Positions 46,358 to 48,457 of a stretch of 48,619 nt of DNA are shown here, one piece after another. Below the pieces are notes generated by a model. The model did no database searches. It worked only from the letters and a program-made list of their open reading frames with translations, and was not told the origin of the DNA. Position 1 is the stretch's first letter; every line of letters begins with the position of its first letter. Source of the stretch: an uncultured Synechococcales cyanobacterium (GTDB taxonomy: Bacteria; Cyanobacteriota; Cyanobacteriia; CAIUCS01); NCBI GenBank assembly GCA_903897715.1, contig CAIUCS010000148.1, positions 1 through 48,619 on the forward strand, in the 5' to 3' direction. The position numbers and the translations under genes are program-made.

Positions 46358-46752
46358 AACCGCATACAAATTTAATATATCAATAAGAGCTATTTTCCAG
46401 TAGCTTATTACGAAAATTCTCATTAGTTAAGGCTTGCTGAGTATCACAATCGTCTACTCTCAGACCCTCAATGAAAGAGGGATATAAATTCCGTTTCTAT
46501 CCCACTGACCAACAGCGACAGAGCTTAGATCAGTTGTTTGGTTGTGTGCGGGTGGTTTGCCAATGCCTTAGCTTTCAGCATGTCTAGCAAATACCATGGA
46601 CATAATGGGTTATCTAAATTAGACTTACTTAAAGGAAAACGAAAAGGTCGAAAAGTTGGTCAACCCCGATGTAAGACTACCTCGGTAGGGTCAGTGAGTG
46701 AAGCGTCAAGAATCACCGCGGCTTCAGCCCAATGAGTATGTCAACTGTCCAA
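46358..46752 (+). mobile_element. Degenerate IS200/IS605-family element
   Basis: The left end (46358-46401) shares a 44-base repeat with 36574-36617. A broken tnpB lies inside (46471-46735), and the right side has ATCACCGCGGCTTCAGCCCA followed by ATGAGTATGTCAAC, matching the GTATGTCAA right-end pattern of such elements. No tnpA is present, so the element cannot move by itself. Boundaries are approximate. Confidence 0.6.
46471..46735 (+). pseudogene. Frameshifted, internally deleted tnpB remnant
   Basis: The first frame begins MKEGYKFRFYPTDQQRQSLD, like the MKxGYKFRIYPTPEQ start of TnpB, and continues to FGCVRVVC before a stop at about 46585. The next frame carries on with FANALAF (the FVYNxAL block) and then GRKVGQPRCK, like the RKVGYPKFK block. 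The central catalytic RuvC part is missing: the remnant is about 265 bases against roughly 1.2 kb for a full tnpB. The C-terminal tail runs into the right-end sequence. Confidence 0.75.
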
Positions 46753-46806
46753 GTCTGGACATTTAATCTGGATCTTTAAATTGTGTAATTGTTAAAGGAA
46801 CAAAGT

Positions 46807-48132
46807 ATGGCTATTTCCACTGAAACAATCACCGAGGTCAAACTATATCGGATGTGGACTCCCGATCACGAATGTCCCTGGGGGCGACGAGCTGTTCATT
46901 TACTCAACGAACACGGAATTCCATTTGAGGATATTCACCTGGGAACGCCAGATGAAATTGCAACTTTCAAAGCTAAGTATGAGGTGACAACTACCCCCCA
47001 GATTTTCATTGGAACAGAACGGATTGGCGGCTATACTGATTTGGCAACCTATCTCAAGGTAAACGCCGAAAAAAACCACTATTCCTACACCCCAGTCATC
47101 GCTCTGTTTTCCACCGCTGGGTTGATGACCTTAGCCACCTCCCTGGGAATGACAGGGTTTATGGGGATTTCCCTATCCATGTTGGCTTCCCTAAAGCTAA
47201 TGGATCTTAAATCTTTTGCAGAGAGTTTTGAGAAATATGACTTGATCACAAAGTACTTTAAGCCCTATGGTAAAGGGTATCCATTTATTGAATTGGCGAT
47301 CGCGTTGGGGTTTCTCTCCGGCATTGCTCCACTGGGCACTGGTATAGGGGCATTAGGGGTTGGGGTGAGTGGTATAGTATCCGTATTTAAGGCAGTTTAC
47401 ATTGACAAAAAGGCACTCAACTGTGCCTGCGTGGGAGGTAACTTAAACGCACCTTTGGGTATGGTTAGCATTGCAGAAAATGCAATGATGGCAGCAATGG
47501 GAGTAATGCTGACTTTCTCCTCTTTAACCGCAACTACCCTAGAATTTGGTAGACCTGCCGTGGACTTACCTGCTAACGTTTCCATCACTCCCAATAGGAT
47601 GGATCACAATGGTGCAATGAATCATAGTTTAATGGATTTAGGTCCAGCTGGTAGTGATTATGATCTAGGCTTCATTGATGGGATGATTCTGCACCATGAA
47701 GGAGCAGTTATCATGGCAAGGGCTGTATTAGAGCACTCCAAAAGGTCAGAATTGAGGCAGCTAGCAACTAAAATTATCAACGCACAAGACCTAGAAATTA
47801 CTCAAATGGTTCAGTGGAGAAAAGTTTGGTATCCTAAAGCGCCAGATACACCAATAGCTTGGAATGATCCAATGAAGCATAGGATGGCGATGTCTCCAGA
47901 ACAAATCAGTGGGATGAGAATGGATGTTGATTTGGGCACCGCCGATGCAGAGTTTGATCTACGATTCCTGAATGGGATGATTCCCCATCATGAAGCGGCT
48001 GTAATCATGGCAAAGGATTTACGCCAAAAGTCTACGCGTTCTGAAATGAAAAGAGTAGCCCTAGATATTATGACCTCACAGCAAGCTGAAATTGAGCAAA
48101 TGAAAAAATGGCGTAGGGATTGGTATCGATGA
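46807..48132 (+). CDS. Glutaredoxin-MauE-DUF305 membrane fusion protein
   Basis: A 441-residue protein; the start at 46807 has AAAGGA seven bases upstream, and a TTG 18 bases earlier is rejected because it would contain that site. Domain 1 (about 10-90) is glutaredoxin-like with a single-cysteine motif C23-P-W-G and the cis-Pro TTTPQIFIG. Domain 2 (about 96-245) is a four-helix MauE/DoxX-type membrane domain with CACVGG (Cys206, Cys208). Domain 3 (about 262-441) is a full DUF305 with two HHE blocks (296-298, 394-396) in MILHHEGAVIMA and MIPHHEAAVIMA, and Met/His-rich flanks. DUF305 includes cyanobacterial CopM, a copper-binding protein, so metal or thiol homeostasis is inferred. Confidence 0.85.
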   Translation: MAISTETITEVKLYRMWTPDHECPWGRRAVHLLNEHGIPFEDIHLGTPDEIATFKAKYEVTTTPQIFIGTERIGGYTDLATYLKVNAEKNHYSYTPVIALFSTAGLMTLATSLGMTGFMGISLSMLASLKLMDLKSFAESFEKYDLITKYFKPYGKGYPFIELAIALGFLSGIAPLGTGIGALGVGVSGIVSVFKAVYIDKKALNCACVGGNLNAPLGMVSIAENAMMAAMGVMLTFSSLTATTLEFGRPAVDLPANVSITPNRMDHNGAMNHSLMDLGPAGSDYDLGFIDGMILHHEGAVIMARAVLEHSKRSELRQLATKIINAQDLEITQMVQWRKVWYPKAPDTPIAWNDPMKHRMAMSPEQISGMRMDVDLGTADAEFDLRFLNGMIPHHEAAVIMAKDLRQKSTRSEMKRVALDIMTSQQAEIEQMKKWRRDWYR

Positions 48133-48386: not shown

Positions 48387-48457
48387 AGCGGGCGGTGGGA
48401 ATCGAACCCACATCATCAGCTTGGAAGGCTGAGGTTTTACCACTAAACCACGCCCGC
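48387..48457 (-). tRNA. tRNA-Gly (anticodon UCC)
   Basis: On the minus strand the acceptor GCGGGCG pairs with CGCCCGC, followed by a U discriminator as expected for glycine. The D-loop GTTTAGTGGTAAAAC, the anticodon stem-loop TCAGC-CTTCCAA-GCTGA with anticodon TCC, and the T-arm TGGGTTCGATTCCCA are all in place. The 3' CCA is not encoded. Confidence 0.97.

Follow-up and report, generated by a model that had tools for sequence, protein, structure and literature searches.

A rare glutaredoxin-MauE-DUF305 fusion in a cyanobacterial genome, its likely role in metal resistance and a candidate route for Cu(I)

A single reading frame in an uncultured cyanobacterium joins a glutaredoxin, a MauE-type membrane domain and a DUF305 domain, raising the questions of whether these parts are genuinely one protein and what such a protein might do at the membrane. 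The gene is located in a window of 48,619 nucleotides (the whole stretch of DNA analysed), an entire contig of a 2.86-Mb cyanobacterial genome whose closest relatives among the genomes searched share only its class.

Architecture and predicted topology of the fusion protein

The fusion gene (46807..48132, forward strand) begins with an ATG at 46807 preceded by AAGGA, ends in a stop codon at 48130-48132 and encodes a complete protein of 441 aa, with no internal stops. Three mutually non-overlapping Pfam matches, each above its curated cut-off, were obtained for Glutaredoxin (PF00462; residues 13-73, E 3.1e-8, 34.1 bits against a cut-off of 22.9), MauE (PF07291; residues 114-236, E 8.7e-10, 39.4 bits against 27, model positions 7-126 of 128) and DUF305 (PF03713; residues 286-435, E 7.9e-35, 120.6 bits against 27), bearing out the initial annotation, in which these families had been recognised in one polypeptide. 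A frame-join through sequencing or assembly, which that annotation had kept in view, is ruled out by a full-length homologue (453-aa frame, 78% identity) with the same three parts in a second genome, G713 (L081), which belongs to a different order of cyanobacteria. Phage records hold at most one of the domains each, and these only weakly, and a phage origin was likewise set aside.

The glutaredoxin (Grx) module covers residues 1-88 (46807..47070, +) and includes a CPWG motif with C23 (46873-46875), a cis-proline in TTTP and a GG glutathione motif, while its fold is visible in the N-terminal part of the AlphaFold model. C23, P24, G26, T63, P64, G74 and G75 are each at least 97% conserved among 61 homologues. 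The CPWG glutaredoxin read from the sequence was thus confirmed, with C23 as its sole active-site cysteine; the only other cysteines in the protein are C206 and C208. All NCBIfam equivalog models for named glutaredoxins (Grx3, the monothiol CGFS-type Grx4 and GrxA) score below cut-off. Human Grx1 binds Cu(I) and passes it on to other copper proteins, but does so through two cysteines (PMC7057996), whereas the Grx of the fusion has one.

The AlphaFold model (mean pLDDT 80.9, pTM 0.55), from whose underlying alignment five rows from annotated plasmid records were left out, consists of the Grx fold followed by five long hydrophobic helices and a pair of helical hairpins; its confidence is low in the linker, in the loop with CAC and in the central part of DUF305. 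The membrane domain had been described as four-helix; the model instead gives five helices, namely an extra N-terminal helix, TM0 (residues 95-111; 47089..47139, +), which is also apparent from hydropathy and precedes the MauE profile, and the MauE domain itself (47146..47529, +; helices at residues 114-132, 153-171, 175-199 and 217-241, with a K/D-rich loop at 133-152), as delineated by Pfam, the AF2 model and a positive-inside count. The CxC pair noted in this domain is present as CAC (C206-A207-C208; 47422..47430, +), at least 97% conserved among the 61 homologues, in the loop between the fourth and fifth membrane helices. Family-wide, K/R residues average 4.2 and 2.0 in the loops that follow helices 2 and 4, against 0.1 and 0.0 in those that follow helices 1 and 3. 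On the model and this charge rule, an N-in arrangement is probable, with Grx and CAC in the cytoplasm and DUF305 in the periplasm. Five helices entered from the inside would place the C-terminal DUF305 on the periplasmic side, in agreement with the location first proposed for it, and, since the first helix falls outside the MauE profile, the prediction puts CAC on the cytoplasmic face alongside Grx.

The MauE of methylamine utilisation is needed, together with MauD, for assembly of the disulfide-containing methylamine dehydrogenase. It shares its Pfam family and a CxC loop with the membrane domain of the fusion, but lacks the extra N-terminal helix and the fused Grx, and the CxC of canonical MauE is taken to differ in its side from the predicted cytoplasmic CAC. 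Small genomes of 1.6-1.7 Mb (family f2, L047-L055; G203, G205, G246 and others) keep a MauE-like protein of ~150 aa in which the extra first helix is present and glutaredoxin is absent.

A linker of residues 242-282 (47530..47652, +), of low confidence, with some His and Met and the least conserved part of the protein, leads to the CopM-type DUF305 domain (residues 283-441; 47653..48129, +), which was delimited by profiles, the model and structural matches. This domain forms two helical hairpins with an HH motif in each repeat, and the two HHE blocks of the complete DUF305 reported initially are found at residues 296-298 and 394-396 (47692-47700 and 47986-47994, +). The NCBIfam CopM model (NF049983) matches at 115.7 bits (cut-off 90), CopM itself supplies the closest solved structures (5fej/5ffa/5ffc) and Foldseek comparison of this part of the model with CopM structures (E 3e-6 to 1e-5, TMt 0.80-0.87) indicates a CopM fold. 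CopM (sll0788/slr6038 of Synechocystis PCC 6803) is periplasmic, without cysteine, and binds Cu(I) with a KD of about 3.7e-16 (PMC4335983); the C-terminal 159 residues of the fusion resemble it in their two HH hairpins and in their composition, with 6 His, 13 Met and no Cys. CopM is, however, a separate secreted protein encoded in a copMRS operon, whereas the copy in the fusion is C-terminal to a membrane protein, follows a membrane helix and has no N-terminal signal peptide of the CopM type, and no copRS two-component genes adjoin the fusion among the neighbouring reading frames in the window or G713.

Distribution, descent and upstream region

The architecture search across cyanobacteria recovered the three-part protein in two of the ~900 distinct genomes sampled, namely the window genome and G713. 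No further fusions were found in additional draws of cyanobacterial genomes, one of them made up mostly of genomes already covered, or in a scan of genome contigs, in which DUF305 was encoded by separate genes, and the window genome holds no second match to the fusion protein. Two-part Grx-MauE proteins are encoded in about 57 genomes of the cyanobacterial sample (a hand count from search tables), in open frames of about 245-350 aa, and separate DUF305 genes are found in many. The two fusions group as sisters in the tree of Grx-MauE and again in that of DUF305, so that a single fusion event accounts for both copies, and since their host genomes are related at class level only, horizontal transfer or widespread loss is indicated after the fusion. 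The dN/dS between them, which averages over both lineages, is 0.16 overall, with values of 0.23 for Grx, 0.10 for MauE, 0.13 for DUF305 and about 0.5 for the linker. The window protein departs from none of the columns that are at least 95% conserved in cyanobacterial Grx-MauE, and its branch in the Grx-MauE tree (0.35, against 0.08 for the sister) indicates that it has evolved faster than the G713 copy.

An intact merR directly precedes the fusion in G713. Upstream of the window copy lies a relic of an IS200/IS605-type tnpB (46471..46745, +), the middle of which is deleted, with an HTH_OrfB_IS605 match at its N-terminus (E 3.7e-12) and about 78-82% DNA identity to cyanobacterial TnpB genes at both ends, confirming the decayed transposon first noted beside the gene. 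Abutting this relic is a 27-bp stretch (46740..46766, +) which reads VNCPSLDI-stop and resembles the VICPNLQI-stop end of the G713 merR; as 8 of 5000 random stretches equalled this similarity, it is graded, on its sequence, as a probable 3' stub of merR. It seems that the tnpB relic has taken the place of most of a merR corresponding to the one ahead of the sister fusion. No metal-type MerR was found elsewhere in the window genome, the sole MerR_1 match being another type of regulator by sequence, so that the regulator of the window copy is probably gone. Because of this probable loss and its faster evolution, the window copy may be poorly expressed or heading to loss. Upstream of it, no promoter match rose above chance, and within the window none of its immediate neighbours was recognised as another metal gene. 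The perfect palindrome TGTCCAAGTCTGGACA (46746-46761) was considered as a MerR operator or terminator and set aside as a likely by-product of coding sequence, given its position inside the probable merR stub. The transposon had also been taken to fit an accessory acquisition; the accessory character of the gene stands, its kind being often plasmid-borne and MerR-linked, but the relic more plausibly reflects damage to the regulator of the fusion gene than the way in which the gene arrived. Just downstream of the fusion lies a tRNA-Gly(TCC) gene (48387-48457, -); accessory DNA often inserts at tRNA genes.

Genomic neighbourhoods of Grx-MauE and DUF305

The cyanobacterial two-part Grx-MauE proteins, annotated as 'glutaredoxin' or 'MauE/DoxX family redox-associated membrane protein', correspond to residues 1-258 of the fusion at about 60-73% identity (e.g. 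LEP3755_63600 of Leptolyngbya sp. NIES-3755). They share its CPWG and CAC motifs and, in its nearest relatives, adjoin a merR, but lack the DUF305 domain. When stretches of 12-20 kb were compared with controls from the same genomes, with DUF305 left out of the counts, MerR-type regulators were found at 12 of the 18 cyanobacterial Grx-MauE loci, mostly directly adjacent, and in none of the 17 control stretches. Many of these 18 loci also encode CopRS-like proteins, multicopper oxidases, CopB, DUF411 proteins, P1B-ATPases or HME-RND proteins, few of which occur in the controls. Copper genes accompany Grx-MauE in plasmid records of Leptolyngbya, Gloeocapsa and Picosynechococcus. The two-part protein nearest to the fusion is encoded on a Leptolyngbya plasmid; a merR of close similarity lies a short distance upstream of it, and a DUF305 gene is found some 10 kb away.

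The same two proteins are encoded by adjacent genes, mostly in a copper/heavy-metal context, in plasmid records of the proteobacteria Agrobacterium (pDG3-1d), Shinella, Paracoccus and Alteromonas, although as separate polypeptides and with a Grx-MauE of about 40-48% identity to that of the fusion. The DUF305 gene follows Grx-MauE after 15 bp in Agrobacterium and Shinella. Alteromonas has DUF305 first, overlapping with Grx-MauE, and Paracoccus has a run of cueR, DUF411, Grx-MauE, DUF305 and P1B-ATPase. Given such adjacent genes in metal-resistance operons, the most fitting view of the fusion is that an operon pair has been joined. In a heavy-metal RND cluster of another genome (L006:950-2061, G034), Grx and MauE occur in two frames 110 bp apart, which makes this a divided or broken form of the two-part protein.

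Metal-resistance genes around the relatives of the fusion, together with the CopM match, support the membrane redox/metal protein of the initial annotation, and a role of the fusion in metal resistance is very likely. A wholly new system, as was also suggested, is not supported, since Grx-MauE recurs in known copper/heavy-metal resistance clusters, with a DUF305 gene adjacent in several; the three-part fusion is rare, while its component parts are already familiar. As had been supposed, no role for the three-part architecture is described in the papers searched, which covered few subscription journals, and within the same coverage the literature on MauE with copper, glutaredoxin or DUF305 held nothing on point and gave no function for Grx-MauE. 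We infer copper to be the metal of the fusion. The MerRs beside cyanobacterial Grx-MauE (L105:9983-10393; L106-L121) retain a Cys ahead of the dimer helix (in PC) as well as one in a C-terminal ICP, and lack the CueR cysteine/serine pattern, and the G713 MerR scores about equally with the MerR, CadR/PbrR and CueR models, all below cut-off. Since the pattern is absent and the scores are intermediate between models, the inducing metal may be other than copper.

A candidate Cu(I) hand-off and its rivals

The favoured reading, to which a probability of roughly 0.5 is given, is that the fusion is a membrane copper (or soft heavy-metal) resistance protein in which Grx-MauE and a CopM-type DUF305 have been joined, with Cu(I) hand-off as the likeliest mechanism. 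Its ancestral parts would be the products of two side-by-side genes, a Grx-MauE membrane protein under MerR control and a periplasmic DUF305 of the CopM type that binds Cu(I), with the fifth helix bringing DUF305 into the periplasm in place of the signal peptide of separate CopM proteins. Either C23 of Grx or the CAC cysteines would accept Cu(I)-glutathione in the cytoplasm; Cu(I) would then travel along the helices of MauE, or between them, until trapped at His/Met sites in the tethered DUF305, from which efflux pumps would remove it. Direct hand-off of metal within the fusion, in both the transfer and its direction, is put forward tentatively, at somewhat less than even odds. A single-chain, ATP-independent route, along which the cytoplasmic Grx would pass glutathione-bound Cu(I) through the MauE bundle to the tethered periplasmic CopM domain, is an unlikely elaboration; if it held, the widespread separate Grx-MauE and DUF305 genes would do the same job, and Grx-MauE would gain its first function.

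The main rival to Cu(I) hand-off, itself rather doubtful, is a redox module with a tethered metal binder, in which Grx and glutathione would keep CAC reduced or glutathionylated, protecting or repairing membrane or periplasmic thiols under copper stress, while DUF305 would be an independent membrane-anchored Cu(I) sponge, the genes having fused because they were co-transcribed. The role of MauE alongside MauD, the intact and conserved glutathione-binding motifs of Grx and the long, low-confidence, poorly conserved linker, as for a loose tether, are consistent with this, but the single membrane Cys pair is predicted to be cytoplasmic, leaving electrons without an obvious route to the periplasm. 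The initial annotation had proposed that electron or thiol equivalents cross the membrane to DUF305; such transfer might, for example, reduce Cu(II) bound there. The order of Grx, membrane and DUF305, the CAC pair and a predicted orientation from cytoplasm to periplasm would suit this transfer, which is nevertheless improbable: no cofactor-binding site was recognised, and a relay of thiols with DUF305 as its end point is unlikely because this domain is cysteine-free and CAC, holding the only membrane cysteines, is predicted on the Grx side, so that Cu(I) hand-off, or a redox module tethered to a metal binder, fits better. That the fusion is of no special benefit and the window copy a decaying gene, barely expressed after merR loss, would explain the tnpB relic and probable merR stub, the missing metal-type MerR, the chance-level promoter match and the long branch, but is very unlikely given the intact frame and conserved sites, the low dN/dS over all modules (averaged over both lineages) and the intact merR-fusion operon of G713.

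The fusion suggests, without proving, that Grx-MauE and CopM-type DUF305 function as a pair across the membrane. For Grx-MauE, recurrent beside copper-resistance genes in cyanobacteria and proteobacteria, it points to CopM-type DUF305 as the partner and suggests a membrane side for each part, turning a gene-neighbour link into a testable two-protein model of Cu(I) movement or buffering across the inner membrane. Elsewhere in the window genome (L136, G000:C188) are a heavy-metal-type RND pump and an adaptor-like gene, a possible acceptor for periplasmic copper.
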